Source: Candidatus Nitrospira neomarina
GTDB lineage: Bacteria; Nitrospirota; Nitrospiria; Nitrospirales; UBA8639
Reading direction: 5' to 3'
DNA length: 64,000 bases
Assembly (NCBI RefSeq): GCF_032051675.1
Contig: NZ_CP116968.1
Location: 4,333,001-4,397,000 of the forward strand
Shown: positions 38,070 to 44,646 of the stretch, piece by piece
Layout: every line of letters starts with the position of its first letter
Numbering within the stretch: the first letter of the stretch is position 1
Made by a program: the position numbers and the translations under genes
The notes under the pieces: generated by a model
What the model was told of the DNA's origin: nothing
The model's database searches: none
What the model saw: the letters and a program-made list of their open reading frames with translations, nothing else

Positions 38070-38690
38070 TTACGACCTGTCCGTCGCGGTTGAGCGATCC
38101 GTCAGACAGCGATCCTCGATAATTAGTCCATCCTGCAGTTGAATCAGCCGGTCGGTCTGAAGGGAGAGTTTTTCGTTGTGGGTCACAATCACGAAGGCTG
38201 TTCCATGGGTATGATTGAGTTTTCGTAAAAGCTCAAATAATTCATCACCGGTATGCGTATCCAGATTGCCTGTCGGTTCATCCGCCAACACCAGGTCAGG
38301 GTGCCGGATTAAGGCTCTGGCCACGGCGACACGCTGCTGCTCTCCTCCTGATAATTCCCCCGGTTTATGGTGCAGACGGTGAGAAAGCCCCACTTCAGAG
38401 AGAAGAGATTTTGCGGCGTCTATAGCCTGTTGCTTGGGAATTTTTTGAATGAGCGCCGGAAGATAGGTGTTTTCCAACGCGGTGAATTCCGGAAGAAGAT
38501 GATGGAATTGAAAGACAAATCCGATGGAGCGATTCCGAAATCCCGCTAATGCGGTTTCGCTGACCCGGAACATATTCTTTCCTTCAAACAATACTTTTCC
38601 ACTTGTCGGGCGATCCAAGGTTCCCATGATGTGGAGCAGGGTACTTTTTCCTGCGCCTGATGCTCCGACAATCGACACCATTTCCTTTTA
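38070..38690 (-). pseudogene. truncated lolD copy
   Basis: An ABC ATPase frame of about 203 residues that lacks the first 46 residues of LolD and starts abruptly at [14 protein letters not shown]. Walker A, the signature LSGGEQQR, Walker B and the His switch are all present. Bases 38127-38688 appear identical to bases 43954-44515 in the intact lolD. Beyond 38127 the 3' end is homologous but diverged (ending DRSTATDRS, not TKA). At 38690 it jumps directly into a lolC remnant, with about 390 bases of lolD/lolC sequence missing. It is probably non-functional: the N-terminal strands and a start site are lost. Confidence 0.75.
38127..38688 (-). repeat. 562-bp identical direct repeat, left copy
   Basis: By eye I found no difference from 43954-44515 (offset 5827). 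It covers most of lolD. Both copies are on the minus strand, so they form direct repeats about 5.3 kb apart around the degraded island. Confidence 0.8.
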
Positions 38691-38890
38691 CATGATGGCT
38701 CCTGGCGTAGCGCCCATGGCTCTGAGGATGGCAATTTCCCGTTGTTTTTCATTGAAAAAACATCGTCAAGGTACCCACGATATTCAAATGAGGCGACCAG
38801 GGTAATTAGGACGAGCAGAAGTAACAACCTCATGGTCTTTTCGAGTTTAAAGAAGTTCCTCAACGATAGAGCTGCGTCGAGGTGCATCTA
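38691..38890 (-). pseudogene. lolC/E permease fragment
   Basis: Bases 38691 to about 38860 resemble 44907-45060 of the intact lolC, with several substitutions and at least two indels. On translation the pieces FKLEKTMRLLLLLVLITLVASF and then MKNN..GKLPS in shifted frames correspond to LolC KLEKTMMFLLLVLITLVASF and its following loop. Only about 55 codons remain. The right end fades out near 38890. Confidence 0.7.
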
Positions 38891-39229
38891 TGCTGCGGCG
38901 AGGCGTTCTGACGCTTCGCACCCACTCTTTGAGCAGCGATAACGGCTGCTTTCTTAAGCGCTTCAGATTAAAGCTATTTTCAGAGGAAGCGCTTCACTCG
39001 GCGGGAAGATCGTCAAAAAGAAAGCTCCGCCTTGTTTCCAGGACGGAGCTTAGTAGAACAGCGCAATTTTTAAATTCCGTTCCTGATAGCGTTTCCGCCA
39101 CCCGTTCAGAATATTTCCACTGCCCTGTTCTGATTGTATGCTATCGCGTTTATGTGTCTGGCCGGTACTGGCAAAACTCCTAGGAACTGAACAGAGCAAG
39201 CTCCCCCACGGTCGCATAGGTGTGCCCTC
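38891..39229. other. degraded intergenic DNA, no gene seen
   Basis: About 340 bases between the lolC scrap and the umuC remnant. One hairpin (AAGCTCCG..CGGAGCTT, near 39025-39052) is visible without a T-tract. Open frames are short and motif-free. Confidence 0.4.
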
Positions 39230-39745
39230 CTATCTCACAAGCAGAATCTCTCCCCACCGCGTCGTATAGCGCGGGCTGCGGAAACCGGCCCGCATGGCCC
39301 ACTGCGGCCTTGCTCAGCCGGGAACACCGAAGTGGAACGTGGTCGCGCCATGGTCTAAATTAATGGCATCGAGCGCTTTCATCAGGCGGGATTGTCTGTG
39401 CCGGTCACGCTCACCGAACAGATCATGCCGGTTACTTCACGCCGGAACCAGATCGGTGAGCATGATGCCGCATTTCTGGTACACGTAACCGGCCCGGTAA
39501 ATCTTCTCCAGGATTGCCCAAGGCGCATCAATGACATCCGGCGTGTAGGCGGTGGGAACAGCAACTTCTTCCCTGCCCGCCCGACGAACTGCAGCAGCGC
39601 CTGCCGAATCGCTTCCCGATCGGTGAGTCGCCTGCCGAACGACCGCGACCCTGATCCCCTTTTGCGGCGGCGCGACCAGCTCAAAATTAAGGCATGCTTC
39701 GCCATTCAGCTCTGAAACATTCCGCTGCCCTCCCACCACCAGGCA
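39230..39745 (-). pseudogene. umuC: decayed umuC (Y-family polymerase) fragment
   Basis: The C-terminal third of UmuC (DNA polymerase V catalytic subunit) in pieces across frames. They are ELNGEACLNFELVAPP, then SRSFGRRLTDREAIRQALLQ, then YTPDVIDAPWAILEKIYRAGY and YQKCGIMLTDL, then SRLMKALDAINL, and WAMRAGFRSPRYTTRWGEIL before a TAG at 39230. At least three frame changes, two internal stops and a deletion of roughly 35 codons separate them. The catalytic N-terminal half is absent. This is a relic of a mobile or SOS-linked umuDC cassette. Confidence 0.8.
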
Positions 39746-39990
39746 CGCGGCCCTGAGTGCGGCGTGCGCTGGCGTGCAGAAGGGCACGCACGTGTTCCAG
39801 AATGGGTGCCGCTCCAAATTGAGCACGCAGCTTCTTTTCTTTCGATGGCGTGCAGATTGAGCTGAGGGTGGCTCCTGACCACAAAGTTGACTGGGGTTTT
39901 AACCAGATGGTAACTATTATCCCTACCCCACACTACGCCCCTTTGGGTCAGCACCTTCCAATAACCGCGAGCTAGACGAAAGGAGCCTTG

Positions 39991-40524
39991 ATGAAACATG
40001 AGACTAAGCCATCCGTCAAAGACTTACCCATGCATCTCGACCGGGACCTTTTTACACGCGTACTCATACGTGAGCTCAGCGGCACATTGCAGGATGTCGT
40101 GGGCCTCGAGGAGGCATCTGGGTTCATCAGCCTCGTCGGGCAAACAATGGGGGAGCAGATTAATCATGAATACCAGAAGGCCTTGAGCGTTGATCGACTT
40201 ACACGCGAAGAAGTCCGGGACGTGCTAGTTGACCTAAAGCGGCGTATCCAGGGAGACTTTTATGTGATCGAGGAAAATGATGACAAAATCGTGTTGGGCA
40301 ATCGGCGGTGTCCCTTTGGAGACAAGGTGCTCGATCGTCCTGCGCTCTGTATGATGACCTCCAATGTATTCGGCTCGATTACCGCAGACAACTTGGGATA
40401 TTCCAAAGTGGAACTCCAGGAGACTATCGCGAAACATGACCAGGAGTGTCGAATTATCGTGCATCTGAGAGCCACACCGGAATCGGCCCATGTTGAAGGG
40501 CGAGAATACTTCAAGGGCCACTAG
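39991..40524 (+). CDS. methanogen output domain 1-type protein
   Basis: A 177-residue cytoplasmic protein. The C-terminal 110 residues read [23 protein letters not shown], then [19 protein letters not shown], and [12 protein letters not shown]. This fits the MetOD1 domain, a Cys-containing output module usually found with methanogen and environmental sensor kinases. Three conserved-looking cysteines (CPFG, ALCMM, QECR) may bind a metal or sense redox. AAGGAG lies six bases before the ATG. The gene is 3 bases ahead of the hybrid kinase gene, so both are cotranscribed and probably act in one pathway. Confidence 0.75.
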
Positions 40525-40527
40525 CTC

Positions 40528-43293
40528 ATGTTTCAGGCGCTGTTGGATTTTTTATCCGACCCCACGGTCCTCGTGACCGCCGATGGGATCGTTCTGTCTT
40601 GCAACAAAGCCTTTGCCGCCCTAGTCGCCGGCTCGGCAGTGGAGCTTACAGGGCGATCGATTTCCTCGGTCACAAACGCACCAGAATCCGACTTCTCTGC
40701 CATTCTCGAACGGTGCTGCCGCTCATCATCCCGTTTACCGTTTGCCATTGGGATTCGGAATTCTCAGGGCCAGCTAAACCAATATCGCGTGGAGGGGGCC
40801 GTCCTGGAACGAGGTCCTAGTAAGAGTTTAACCACGATAGGCCTCCGGATAAAGTCCCATGCCCTAGCAACTCAGGGATTTCAGAGGCTCAACAAAGAAA
40901 TTGCTGCTCTCAAAAAAGAGAACCACGAGCGCCAACGAATCCAGCACAAACTGACAGACCTGCAATCCCGCCTGACGGCCACCTTGGAAAGTATGGGGGA
41001 TGCAGTAGTGACGACAGATGCGCAATCCCGTGTCACGTACCTCAATCCCGTGGCTGTTCAGTTACTTGGATATTCCTCCGAAGAGGCCGTGGGTCAACCC
41101 TTGGACACCGTGTTCCGCATCGTACACCGAGACACTCGAAGCCCGGTTGAAAGCCCTATAGATCGTGTTTTGCGAGAAGGCATTGCTACTGGACTGGCCG
41201 ATCGCACGGTCCTTGTGCGCCGAGATGGCATTGACGTGCCTATCGATGACTGCGCCACCACGATCAAGGATTCGAGCGGTCAAATCCTGGGTGCCGTTCT
41301 TCTCTTTCGTGACGTGTCTGATCGGCAAGATAGCTTTCGTAAAGCCGAGCTTCTCGCAGCGGTGGTCTCGTCTTCGGAAGATGCGATTATGACTAAGGAT
41401 CTGAACGGAACGGTGACCAGTTGGAATGAGGGAGCCGTGCGCATCTTTGGATATACCGCCGAAGAGATGATCGGTCAACCCATACGGCTGCTCTTTCCAC
41501 CAGATCGACAGGATGAAGAAGTGGACATATTGGCACAAATAAGCAGTGGCCAACGGATTACGCCGTACGAGACCGTGCGCCGCAAAAAGAGCGGGCATTT
41601 CTGCGATATATCCTTGAGTGTGTCTCCGATCAGGGATGAGGACGGGCGGATCATTGGCGCCTCAACGATTGCACGTGACATTACGGAACATAAGCGCGCT
41701 CAGCGCGCGCTCTATGAGTCGCTGGAACGGTGGAAAGTCACTCTCGAGAGTATCGGGGATGCGGTACTCGCCACGGATGCACAGGGTCATATCACGTTTG
41801 CCAATGCGGTCGCCCTGAACTTATTGGGGCGGGTGAAGGCAGATGTGATCGGGAGACCGTTGGTTCACGTTTTTAATATTCTGAATGAACACACACGCTC
41901 CACCGTGGCAAATCCTGTGGATCGCGTCCTTCGAGATGGCGTGGTCGTCGGCTTGGCGAATCATACACTGCTGATCCGGCCGGACGGCAGTGAGGTGCCC
42001 ATCGATGACAGCGCTGCTCCCATTTTCGATCTCGAGGGGAGCTTGGTAGGAGTGATACTCATATTTCGAGACATTACTAAACGCAAGGAAGCGGAATCCA
42101 AGCTGCAGCGTTGGAGCACAGAACTGGAAGCCCGAGTGCTCGCACGGACTCAGAAACTTGTCCACTCGCAAGAGCGTCTTCGAGGGCTCGCCTCCCAACT
42201 AAGCTCCGCGGAGAGGCGGGAGCGTCGCCGACTCGCGAATAGCTTACATGATTACCTCGCTCAGCTGCTTGCCTTGGCCCGTATGAAGGTGAGCCAAACA
42301 AAGCAGCTGAGAAACACGCCGATGGAATCGGAGACTGCCCTGACCGAGCTCGACAACGTCTTACAGCAGTGTATGTCTTTTACCCGGTCTCTGATGGCAC
42401 AACTGAGCCCTTCTGTCTTGCACGATTTGGGATTGGTCCCTGCCCTTCATTGGCTCGCTGAGCAAATGAGGCAACAGGGTCTCACCGTCGAGGTTCAAGT
42501 CAATACAGAGGAGCAGCCGCGCTTAGAGGACAATGAAGCGGATATGCTATTTCAGTCTATACGTGAGCTCCTACTAAACGTCATCAAGCATGCAGGTGTT
42601 TTGCTCGCGACTGTTGTGGTTGAGCAAGACGGCGACAAGAACTGGCTGATTTCCGTGCAAGACAGCGGCACGGGTTTCGAGGTAGGAACGATGCCACGGC
42701 CTTCTGCCTCGGGCGAGCGTTTCGGTCTCTTTAGTATCCAGGAGCGCATGGAGTTGATGGGTGGACACTGTTTTATTGATTCCAAGCCTGGCCGAGGGGC
42801 AACAGTCACATTGAGTCTTCCCATATCACGCCCGGCAATGACGCTAGAACCGTCACTATCACCCGCTACCATCGACAAAAAGACAGCTCCAAAACCAACA
42901 GGGACACGCTGGAGAGTATTGCTAGTCGATGATCATGTCATGGTACGTCAAGGACTTCACAGCCTTCTTGAGACATATCCAGATCTGGAAGTGGTTGCGG
43001 TGGCGGCGGATGGGGAGGAAGCCGTCGAGCATGCTCTGCACTGTCAGCCGGATGTCGTCCTTATGGATATCAACTTGCCAAAGTTAAATGGGATTGATGC
43101 GACAAGACGGATTAAACAAAGGGCACCGCATATTCTTGTGATTGGATTATCAGTCCAAACCTCGGCACAGACAACTGAGGCTCTCCTTGAGGCGGGTGGA
43201 GCAATCCTCCTGAGCAAGGAAAAAGCAGCCGATGATCTGTATCGAACCATCGCACAACTTCTTCTGGGCACCAGTAATGCTTACAAAGTCTAA
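40528..43293 (+). CDS. four-PAS hybrid sensor histidine kinase with receiver
   Basis: A 921-residue soluble sensor kinase. PAS-like domains span about 1-110, 149-265, 272-390 and 395-515; the second and fourth are similar to each other (SMGDAVVTTDAQ, SIGDAVLATDAQ). The kinase core is of the NarX/DegS HisKA_3 type, with the phospho-acceptor His in RRRLANSLHDYLAQLLALA, and a HATPase domain (DSGTGFEVG, ERFGLFSIQERMELMGG). A C-terminal receiver (about 793-915) has VDDH, the acceptor Asp in VLMDINLP and Lys in LLSKEKA. There is no membrane helix and no DNA-binding domain. Kinases of this class normally signal to LuxR-type regulators, which are not adjacent here. Confidence 0.9.
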   Translation: MFQALLDFLSDPTVLVTADGIVLSCNKAFAALVAGSAVELTGRSISSVTNAPESDFSAILERCCRSSSRLPFAIGIRNSQGQLNQYRVEGAVLERGPSKSLTTIGLRIKSHALATQGFQRLNKEIAALKKENHERQRIQHKLTDLQSRLTATLESMGDAVVTTDAQSRVTYLNPVAVQLLGYSSEEAVGQPLDTVFRIVHRDTRSPVESPIDRVLREGIATGLADRTVLVRRDGIDVPIDDCATTIKDSSGQILGAVLLFRDVSDRQDSFRKAELLAAVVSSSEDAIMTKDLNGTVTSWNEGAVRIFGYTAEEMIGQPIRLLFPPDRQDEEVDILAQISSGQRITPYETVRRKKSGHFCDISLSVSPIRDEDGRIIGASTIARDITEHKRAQRALYESLERWKVTLESIGDAVLATDAQGHITFANAVALNLLGRVKADVIGRPLVHVFNILNEHTRSTVANPVDRVLRDGVVVGLANHTLLIRPDGSEVPIDDSAAPIFDLEGSLVGVILIFRDITKRKEAESKLQRWSTELEARVLARTQKLVHSQERLRGLASQLSSAERRERRRLANSLHDYLAQLLALARMKVSQTKQLRNTPMESETALTELDNVLQQCMSFTRSLMAQLSPSVLHDLGLVPALHWLAEQMRQQGLTVEVQVNTEEQPRLEDNEADMLFQSIRELLLNVIKHAGVLLATVVVEQDGDKNWLISVQDSGTGFEVGTMPRPSASGERFGLFSIQERMELMGGHCFIDSKPGRGATVTLSLPISRPAMTLEPSLSPATIDKKTAPKPTGTRWRVLLVDDHVMVRQGLHSLLETYPDLEVVAVAADGEEAVEHALHCQPDVVLMDINLPKLNGIDATRRIKQRAPHILVIGLSVQTSAQTTEALLEAGGAILLSKEKAADDLYRTIAQLLLGTSNAYKV

Positions 43294-43375
43294 TCCATGG
43301 TGAGATATCTTAATAGGGGTAGATCCTCGTTAAGAAGGAGTCCTTACAATCGGGTGCTGAAGCCAACGGCCAATG

Positions 43376-43780
43376 TTACCCCGTATTTCTTTCCCACCTC
43401 GGCAATGTATATAGCAGTAACAAGTGCTTCGTTCTGGCAGAAGAAAGTTTCTTCTGGCGGGTGGGATCAGTCCAGTAGGTGAACAATCGTGCCGTAGCCG
43501 GCGTTACACCAACATAACCGCCCTTGCGCCACATTGCGACGCGACGACGGATGTCGTTAACGAGCTTATTTTCTTCAATGCGGTCTTGTGTCCACTCCGG
43601 GTCGAATGGAAGCTGTTGCGCGCCTTTCTTTTTCGGCTTGGTGATAGGCACGAAATACGAACTTGTCCGCCGGCCGTCGTCGATCTCGTTGGAGATGCAT
43701 TCCTCGGTAAATCGAAAATGGCGAGCAGGCTCGTTAAAAGGCGAATTGATGATCGGGTTCTAAATGACAACTTGGCTCAT
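43376..43780 (-). pseudogene. 5' fragment of a restriction-type helicase gene
   Basis: From an ATG at 43780 the frame reads MSQVVI, a TAG stop, then NPIINSPFNEPARHFRFTEE, RRTSSYFVPITKPKKK, EWTQDRIEENKLVNDIRRRV and GGYVGVTPATARLFTYWTDP. This matches the N-terminus of type III-like restriction helicases (BPTD_3080-type). After RQKK a one-base deletion shifts the frame; the expected FCQNEALVTAIYIAEVGKKYG is visible in the next frame. The gene then ends near 43370 without any helicase motif. A nonsense mutation, a frameshift and truncation make it clearly dead. Confidence 0.75.
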
Positions 43781-43917
43781 ACTCACACGTCCAAGGATTG
43801 CAAAGCTCTTTCTCCGCATCCCTCCCCCTTCTTCACCATCAGAAACGACCGAGACCAGTTTCCACCATTACAGTACCTCTCTGCAAACACTATTCGTATC
43901 CTCAGGAAAAGCCTTTT

Positions 43918-44646
43918 TTAAGCCTTTGTGAGGCACCGATCTTCAATGATTTTTCCATCCTGCAGTTGAATCAGCCGGTCGGTCTGAAGGGAGAGTTTTT
44001 CGTTGTGGGTCACAATCACGAAGGCTGTTCCATGGGTATGATTGAGTTTTCGTAAAAGCTCAAATAATTCATCACCGGTATGCGTATCCAGATTGCCTGT
44101 CGGTTCATCCGCCAACACCAGGTCAGGGTGCCGGATTAAGGCTCTGGCCACGGCGACACGCTGCTGCTCTCCTCCTGATAATTCCCCCGGTTTATGGTGC
44201 AGACGGTGAGAAAGCCCCACTTCAGAGAGAAGAGATTTTGCGGCGTCTATAGCCTGTTGCTTGGGAATTTTTTGAATGAGCGCCGGAAGATAGGTGTTTT
44301 CCAACGCGGTGAATTCCGGAAGAAGATGATGGAATTGAAAGACAAATCCGATGGAGCGATTCCGAAATCCCGCTAATGCGGTTTCGCTGACCCGGAACAT
44401 ATTCTTTCCTTCAAACAATACTTTTCCACTTGTCGGGCGATCCAAGGTTCCCATGATGTGGAGCAGGGTACTTTTTCCTGCGCCTGATGCTCCGACAATC
44501 GACACCATTTCCTTTCGAGCTAAGGTCATGGAAATGCCGTTGAGGACATGCACCGTCTGCTTGCCCATCTGAAATGAACGACAGAGATTGTCGATAGAGA
44601 CCAATGGCACCTGGGGGGTGAACTCTGAGTCGGTTGAGTTATTCAT
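43918..44646 (-). CDS. lolD: lipoprotein-releasing ABC ATPase LolD
   Basis: LolD supplies ATP for the LolCDE complex that extracts lipoproteins from the inner membrane. The 242-residue protein has Walker [21 protein letters not shown], signature LSGGEQQR, Walker [12 protein letters not shown] and VTHNEKLS. It overlaps the end of lolC by 8 bases, the normal coupled order. Bases 43954-44515 are repeated identically at 38127-38688. Confidence 0.93.
43954..44515 (-). repeat. 562-bp identical direct repeat, right copy
   Basis: Internal part of the intact lolD; same sequence and orientation as 38127-38688. The flanks on both sides differ from those of the left copy. Confidence 0.8.

Follow-up and report, generated by a model that had tools for sequence, protein, structure and literature searches.

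What does a domain that is named for the output of methanogen regulators do in a bacterium, directly in front of a histidine kinase? This question is raised by two adjacent genes of Candidatus Nitrospira neomarina. They lie in the window, which is the whole stretch of 64,000 nucleotides that was analysed (contig NZ_CP116968.1, positions 4,333,001 to 4,397,000). The genome is complete (4.80 Mb) and contains a single copy of MetOD1, a domain whose annotation 'methanogen output domain 1-containing protein' is now attached to bacterial genes. A sequence-only reading of the locus had proposed a redox or gas-sensing unit, in which MetOD1 is either the signal input or the output; this interpretation is partly supported by our analysis. 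The two genes most likely code for a conserved sensory unit of two proteins whose outputs are exchangeable, akin to the known arrangement of a stand-alone sensor plus operon kinase. We consider it likely that MetOD1 is a sensor of the V4R fold, which docks in trans on the first PAS domain of its partner and/or on the subsequent helix. The elements of the pair are:

39991..40524, + strand: stand-alone MetOD1 protein of 177 amino acids, the proposed sensor subunit (open reading frame; PF18546, 77.4 bits; AlphaFold; V4R/Bet3/H-NOX fold)
40309..40317, + strand: Cys107-Pro108-Phe109 motif of MetOD1 (invariant in 82/82 sequences and 86/86 rows)
40348..40350, + strand: codon of Cys120 of MetOD1 (invariant in 82/82 sequences and 86/86 rows)
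40447..40449, + strand: codon of Cys153 of MetOD1 (invariant in 82/82 sequences and 86/86 rows)
40528..43293, + strand: soluble hybrid histidine kinase of 921 amino acids, four PAS domains followed by HisKA_3, HATPase_c and a receiver (open reading frame, Pfam, hydropathy, motifs)
40528..40863, + strand: first PAS domain of the kinase (about residues 1-112), a special partner-type PAS (held-out profile, 104.8 bits; PAS fold)
40879..40932, + strand: helix after the first PAS, FxxLNxxIxxLxxExxxR (residues 118-135), candidate recognition or transmission element (row conservation)
42247..42249, + strand: His574, predicted phosphoacceptor in the HisKA_3 H-box (motif position; HisKA_3 spans residues 565-631)
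42916..43251, + strand: C-terminal receiver (residues 797-908) with phosphoacceptor Asp847 and no effector (PF00072, 83.8 bits; motifs)

The MetOD1 reading frame begins with an ATG at position 39991, just 3' of an AAGGAG-like ribosome site, and its stop codon ends at position 40524; the ATG of the kinase (40528) follows after three bases. The PF18546 score is above the curated cut-off of 23.8 bits, and no NCBIfam model matches the protein. A scan for promoters and terminators yielded about as many sites as shuffled sequences. In the kinase, HisKA_3 is recognized by PF07730 with 35.2 bits. The motif residues His574, Asn684, Asp712 and Gly733 are present, as are Asp801/802, Asp847, Ser875 and Lys897 of the receiver. 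Because all catalytic and receiver residues are in place by motif, the protein reads as an active hybrid kinase. No transmembrane helix was detected in it, the highest 19-residue hydropathy value (1.73) being located within the HATPase domain, and Pfam lists no effector domain C-terminal of the receiver. Thus the open reading frames, Pfam and hydropathy confirm what the sequence-only reading had described: a stand-alone MetOD1 protein with three cysteines, encoded 3 bases before a soluble four-PAS hybrid kinase that has its own receiver and no DNA-binding output. The label 'NarX-type', also given there, is appropriate for the HisKA_3/HATPase core but not for the input side. A transmembrane periplasmic nitrate-sensor domain (Pfam) and a hydrophobic segment typical of a membrane helix are both absent, and the score of 72 bits against the NCBIfam NarQ equivalog does not reach the cut-off of 553.

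Is this arrangement peculiar to one genome? A profile search with three MetOD1 proteins against 84,980 species genomes gave 108 relatives. The best 80 of these, the window protein and the Nitrospirota locus L003 form a set of 82 sequences from nine phyla: 27 are cyanobacterial, 18 alphaproteobacterial, 14 beta- or gammaproteobacterial, seven from planctomycetes, six from myxobacteria or former Deltaproteobacteria, four from Nitrospirota, three from Actinobacteria and one each from Armatimonadota, Verrucomicrobiota and Acidobacteriota. Note that the similarity set was reached via the motifs G[EQ][QW]IN[EH][EML]Y and KR[RK]IQGDF, whose invariance is therefore a result of the selection. In all 80 loci that have downstream sequence, a same-strand gene lies directly 3' of MetOD1, and its N-terminal PAS is of one and the same kind throughout; in the other two, the contig ends within 110 and 20 bases of MetOD1. 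With the nearest start codon chosen by script, the partner begins within 30 bases of the MetOD1 stop in 60 of the 80 loci and overlaps it by four bases in 14. Nineteen of the 20 more loosely spaced pairs are cyanobacterial. Around the 82 loci, no gene apart from the pair is broadly shared: the MetOD1 family occurs in 82, the kinase cluster in 61 and the next largest family in seven. The neighbourhood was consequently rejected as a clue to the signal, as flanking genes cluster in at most seven loci.

A Pfam survey that is free of this motif selection covered 1379 genomes (295 Nitrospirota, 194 cyanobacteria, 398 Pseudomonadota, 246 Actinomycetota and 246 Planctomycetota). It gave PF18546 matches at 61 places in 60 genomes. 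At 34 places the match is a strong stand-alone MetOD1, defined by at least 180 bits to the profile made from A3, and the gene directly after it is headed by PAS and helix in 34/34 cases; this is still true for 24/24 once ten loci shared with the similarity set or the query are removed. Counted among the 34 is locus L120 (genome G715), where two overlapping frames share the partner PAS between them (59 and 25 bits), perhaps because of a frameshift in the gene. The 27 places outside the strong class comprise seven fused domains (134-173 bits), 13 matches that score 19-40 bits, a single one with 15 bits and six not matched by this profile. MetOD1 was found in a few per cent of the surveyed genomes or fewer. 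Its occurrence is thus patchy, but when stand-alone it is nearly always paired.

The reverse search, which applied the PAS profile A4 to the 13-20 best candidates of each genome, gave a corresponding picture. Among 194 cyanobacteria, scores of at least 66 bits are confined to the 12 genomes that hold MetOD1, and two further genomes reach 37-42 bits. Among 290 Nitrospirota, 136-146 bits are reached in exactly the three genomes with a stand-alone MetOD1, and the others do not exceed 48 bits. The rows from which A4 was built include the window kinase and the two other Nitrospirota members that were afterwards recovered with it; when a PAS profile lacks these rows, the Nitrospirota members still score 99-128 bits, which is less but well clear of the background. 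The gene pair is recurrent, neither local nor due to chance. The sequence-only reading had named a conserved neighbourhood of the two genes and conserved cysteines as the points by which to judge its proposal, and both were found: the genes co-occur in nine phyla (80/80 and 34/34 loci), and the cysteines are invariant (82/82 and 86/86). It had further known of no function described for the pairing outside archaea. None was found in print, although the pair is common and not confined to this genome; the literature searched, which did not include subscription papers, yielded no description of the bacterial MetOD1-PAS partner pair.

What do the partners have in common? A PAS profile was derived from the first 150 residues of 71 partners, the window kinase being excluded. 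Applied to the window kinase, it yields 104.8 bits for the first PAS and 7.3-13.5 bits for the second to fourth. Three actinobacterial SpoIIE phosphatases that were not used for the training are likewise recognized by their N-termini (78.5-101.5 bits). The most constant residues of the partners are, however, outside the PAS itself, in the helix that follows: among 80 rows, Phe118 occurs in 80, Leu121 in 79, Leu128 in 77, and Glu131 and Arg135 in 75 each. What stands behind this helix is exchanged. The domains were counted in 79 partners; that of locus L038 is not among them, but its PAS is of the same kind and it is included in the 80/80 count of adjacent genes. HATPase_c occurs in 74 partners, HisKA in 59, HisKA_2 in 16, SpoIIE in three and HisKA_3 in one, which is that of the window. 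Among the survey loci there are also GGDEF diguanylate cyclases (in two cyanobacteria), one further HisKA_3 kinase and one further SpoIIE protein. Since only 33/79 partners have a receiver, the effectorless receiver of the window kinase is a local detail. In a quick tree with many weak branches, the nearest relative of the window MetOD1 is that of N. moscoviensis (support 94). Its partner is a HisKA kinase without a receiver, so the output changed between these sister pairs.

Distant MetOD1 domains are fused to outputs of their own: to sigma-54 AAA modules (L004, L131), to a LuxR-type helix-turn-helix (HTH; L006, L007, L009) and to an RsbW-like ATPase (L137, L138). Because the outputs of the partners are exchanged and the fused relatives carry their own outputs, input is the favoured role, and judged from these sequence comparisons MetOD1 is most likely the signal input that acts in trans. 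Of the two roles left open by the sequence-only reading, output is the disfavoured one. MetOD1 is also the most conserved piece of the pair, with a mean pairwise identity of 63%; the PAS has 34% and the HATPase domain 32%.

Two further groups of MetOD1 genes were noted. On a Methylobacter plasmid (L222, 751-4395), a MetOD1-sigma-54 activator adjoins a ZIP-family metal transporter and a carbonic anhydrase, which is possibly a hint at zinc. In Actinomycetota (L139-L151), weak MetOD1 matches of 19-40 bits are located at protein C-termini; L139, L143, L144, L146 and L148 have an apparent winged HTH and retain CPF..C..C by eye.

The three cysteines Cys107, Cys120 and Cys153 are invariant in 82/82 sequences and, when four fused relatives are included, in 86/86 rows. 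The fused and HTH relatives show a similar cysteine spacing by eye. Conservation of MetOD1 is very high altogether, including the CPF, TSN, C and G residues. The AlphaFold model calculated from 86 rows has a mean predicted local distance difference test score of 94.4. In the fold comparison it matches Bet3/TRAPP with Z 15.0, the sensor domains of DmpR, MopR and PoxR with Z 14-15 (for 6iy8, a DmpR/MopR sensor fold, Z 14.9 and a root mean square deviation of 3.0 over 149 residues) and H-NOX with Z 8.8-9.0. Foldseek agrees with this assignment. MetOD1 is thus predicted to have the V4R/Bet3/H-NOX fold, and in the model the closest bacterial sensors are DmpR, MopR and PoxR. Galperin et al. (2018) had deduced this kinship and the three-cysteine cluster from sequence (PMC5847659). 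Searches of the Protein Data Bank by sequence gave one chance-level match for a single MetOD1 (a coat protein, E 0.11); with the MetOD1 profile the best E value was 0.9, and an archaeal TRAPPC3 was included at E 1.1. In DmpR, zinc is bound by Cys151, Glu172, Cys177 and Cys185 (PMC7264223), and the MopR-type zinc site is said to maintain the structure (PMC10715001). Given these precedents, the MetOD1 cysteines may, by analogy, hold a structural metal next to a ligand pocket just as well as form a redox switch. An alignment to V4R sequences for placing zinc ligands was dropped, the match being too weak.

Taken together, the following mechanism can be proposed. MetOD1 would be a small cytosolic sensor that binds a cue, which may be a metal or thiol signal or a small ligand. 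Its cysteines most likely hold a metal, zinc if the analogy to DmpR applies, or form a thiol switch next to a ligand pocket. The state of MetOD1 would be reported by docking on the first PAS of the partner, on the FxxLNxxIxxLxxExxxR helix or on both, and the helix would pass the change to whichever enzyme stands behind it. In the window, the HisKA_3 kinase would then phosphorylate its own receiver (His574 to Asp847), from which the signal may pass to an unlinked phosphotransfer protein or be transmitted by contact.

Several observations weigh against this proposal. The evolutionary distances of MetOD1 correlate barely better with those of the PAS (0.72) than with those of the HATPase domain (0.67); this mirror-tree comparison used 68 of the 79 partners, 11 having been dropped because the pattern for cutting out the HATPase domain was missing. 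Bet3, a vesicle tethering protein, matches the fold no less closely than the sensors, and the fold therefore does not prove sensing. At the sequence level, Pfam V4R (PF02830) is not listed for MetOD1 up to E = 1, where filters drop most matches above about 0.1, and the profile-profile match between MetOD1 and V4R is weak (29.6%, 22 columns) and aligns the last cysteine alone. Furthermore, the association with the PAS has exceptions. A divergent stand-alone MetOD1 of Priestia megaterium has no PAS partner, the PAS of the partner on a Rhodobacteraceae plasmid reaches only 22 bits, and one cyanobacterium (G485) carries a second, unlinked partner-type PAS on a GGDEF protein. Finally, archaeal MetOD1 domains are fused to receivers, which fits an output equally well (PMC5847659, PMC11784639).

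This last point leads to the converse interpretation, that MetOD1 is an output controlled by kinase and receiver, as the REC-MetOD1 (receiver-MetOD1) regulators of methanogens would suggest (PMC5847659). Phosphotransfer from MA4377 to the REC-MetOD1 response regulator MA2445 has in fact been reported (PMC11784639). For the bacterial pairs, however, we regard this role as very unlikely: the majority of the partners have no receiver, SpoIIE or GGDEF partners have no phosphotransfer to give, and the fused MetOD1 domains are joined to outputs that are already complete. It is improbable to a similarly high degree that MetOD1 is a structural subunit like Bet3 or BcsD, which assembles or stabilises the partner and senses nothing. 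Bet3 and BcsD are indeed among the high fold matches (Z 10-15), but a scaffold would not need invariant cysteines. Moreover, there are one or two MetOD1 copies per genome, nearly always with a signal-transduction enzyme, and MetOD1 is fused to regulators elsewhere.

A function as an enzyme is somewhat more probable, although we consider it unlikely as well. MetOD1 might make or remove a small molecule that is sensed by the first PAS of the partner, for which no contact would be needed. Galperin et al. report a similarity to ATC hydrolase and propose a related activity (PMC5847659), and an active site would fit the very strong conservation of MetOD1, in which CPF, TSN, C and G are included. Yet the fusions to sigma-54, LuxR and RsbW-like modules place MetOD1 where sensors sit, and the conserved helix that all partners have behind the PAS points to a contact surface. 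Least probable of the four alternatives is a haem-based gas sensor, in which the cysteine of the CP motif would replace the histidine. The haem of H-NOX (HNOB) domains has a proximal histidine. No histidine is conserved across the 82 MetOD1 sequences, so an H-NOX-type haem is unlikely and was rejected as the principal interpretation, even though H-NOX chains are among the fold matches and the operon of a stand-alone sensor and a hybrid kinase has its counterpart in H-NOX/HqsK (PMC6759604). In addition, H-NOX is far below the DmpR-type domains in the fold comparison. A sensor that acts in trans on the first PAS and/or the helix remains our preferred interpretation.

How did the pair come into this genome? 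Two elements of the window bear on this question:

38101..38688, - strand: truncated second lolD copy, left direct repeat of the insertion (99% identical along 588 bp with the intact lolD gene, 43918-44646)
38852..43924, + strand: stretch without counterpart in two congeners, carrying the MetOD1-kinase pair (blastn against L177 from G252 and L178 from G191)

The 588-bp lolD direct repeat (38101-38688 and 43928-44515, 99% identical) flanks a stretch of about 5.1 kb that contains the pair. In the congeners G252 and G191 the lolCD region is uninterrupted, and MetOD1 was not found in either genome. At the left junction, a lolC fragment of 161 bp (38691-38851) is 87-88% identical to both congeners and, in pieces, 80-93% identical to the window's own lolC, as if it had been brought in from another species. 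The pair appears to have been acquired recently, through recombination at lolCD, and the source of the insertion of about 5 kb was perhaps another Nitrospira.

MetOD1 also occurs on plasmids, and nine of 16 such records were examined. On plasmid pDE of Cereibacter sphaeroides 2.4.1 (L091, 1894-8008), the pair directly follows a biliverdin-producing heme oxygenase and an EAL-domain protein; a response regulator is next after the pair and a universal stress protein is near. We do not claim a link to tetrapyrroles, as these heme oxygenase and EAL neighbours do not recur as a cluster. RSP_4193 has a regulatory role in a heat-shock/singlet-oxygen regulon according to one paper, and this tag could not be mapped to L091. 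A Streptomyces plasmid (L094, 1382-7099) carries a MetOD1-PP2C pair near an RsbA-type anti-sigma regulator, a STAS protein and an ATP-binding protein, which suggests partner switching as the pathway there. The divergent MetOD1 from the P. megaterium plasmid (L093, 4983-5600) has its own C-terminal extension and a STAS protein nearby. In G485, the partner-type PAS copy on the GGDEF protein (L191, 952-1938) has no adjoining MetOD1.

A domain that owes its name to methanogen output most likely provides, in bacteria, the input of a portable sensor made of two proteins. The annotation of bacterial MetOD1 genes then becomes a testable prediction with the first PAS and the FxxLN helix as candidate recognition element, and C. 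sphaeroides 2.4.1 and N. moscoviensis offer themselves as model organisms. Should a ligand be found, the pair could serve as a sensor cassette, whose output has already been swapped several times in nature. NosP, like H-NOX, is a stand-alone cytosolic sensor for signalling enzymes. The chances are about even that MetOD1 with its dedicated PAS and helix constitutes a third general sensor of this kind, patchily distributed over at least nine phyla and serving histidine kinases, SpoIIE phosphatases and GGDEF cyclases. With the same even chance, its cue (a thiol, metal or redox state, or a shared metabolite) would be common enough to hold the sensor at 63% identity while the partners are at about 33%.

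How does the pair compare with known systems? The window protein belongs to the MetOD1 family PF18546 by profile (77.4 bits) and by the same three-cysteine cluster as described in PMC5847659. The published family is from methanogens, mostly with receivers, and was named as an output (PMC5847659), whereas the bacterial form is stand-alone and has a PAS-headed partner. With NarX and NarQ the window kinase shares the HisKA_3 and HATPase_c core, and its receiver is NarL-like; it differs in having four cytosolic PAS domains instead of a membrane and periplasmic sensor, and a receiver without effector. DmpR, MopR and PoxR provide the best-matching bacterial sensor fold. The zinc site of DmpR with its three cysteines and one glutamate recalls the MetOD1 cluster, and distant MetOD1 domains are, like these sensor domains, N-terminal to sigma-54 AAA modules. 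In contrast, MetOD1 has no Pfam V4R match, the pocket residues and the glutamate ligand are unmatched, and the paired MetOD1 is proposed to act in trans. The nearest working analogue is the pair of H-NOX and the kinase from its operon. The hnoX gene of Vibrio parahaemolyticus lies in one operon with that of the hybrid kinase HqsK; H-NOX bound to nitric oxide lowers the autophosphorylation of HqsK, and the HqsK receiver passes the phosphate to a separate Hpt protein (PMC6759604). Both systems combine a small stand-alone protein of the same broad fold, a sensor in the case of H-NOX and a putative one here, with a hybrid kinase that is encoded alongside and regulated in trans, as established for HqsK (PMC6759604) and proposed for the window kinase. 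MetOD1 differs from H-NOX in that it lacks a conserved histidine, has its own three-cysteine site and is accompanied by partners that include phosphatases and cyclases.

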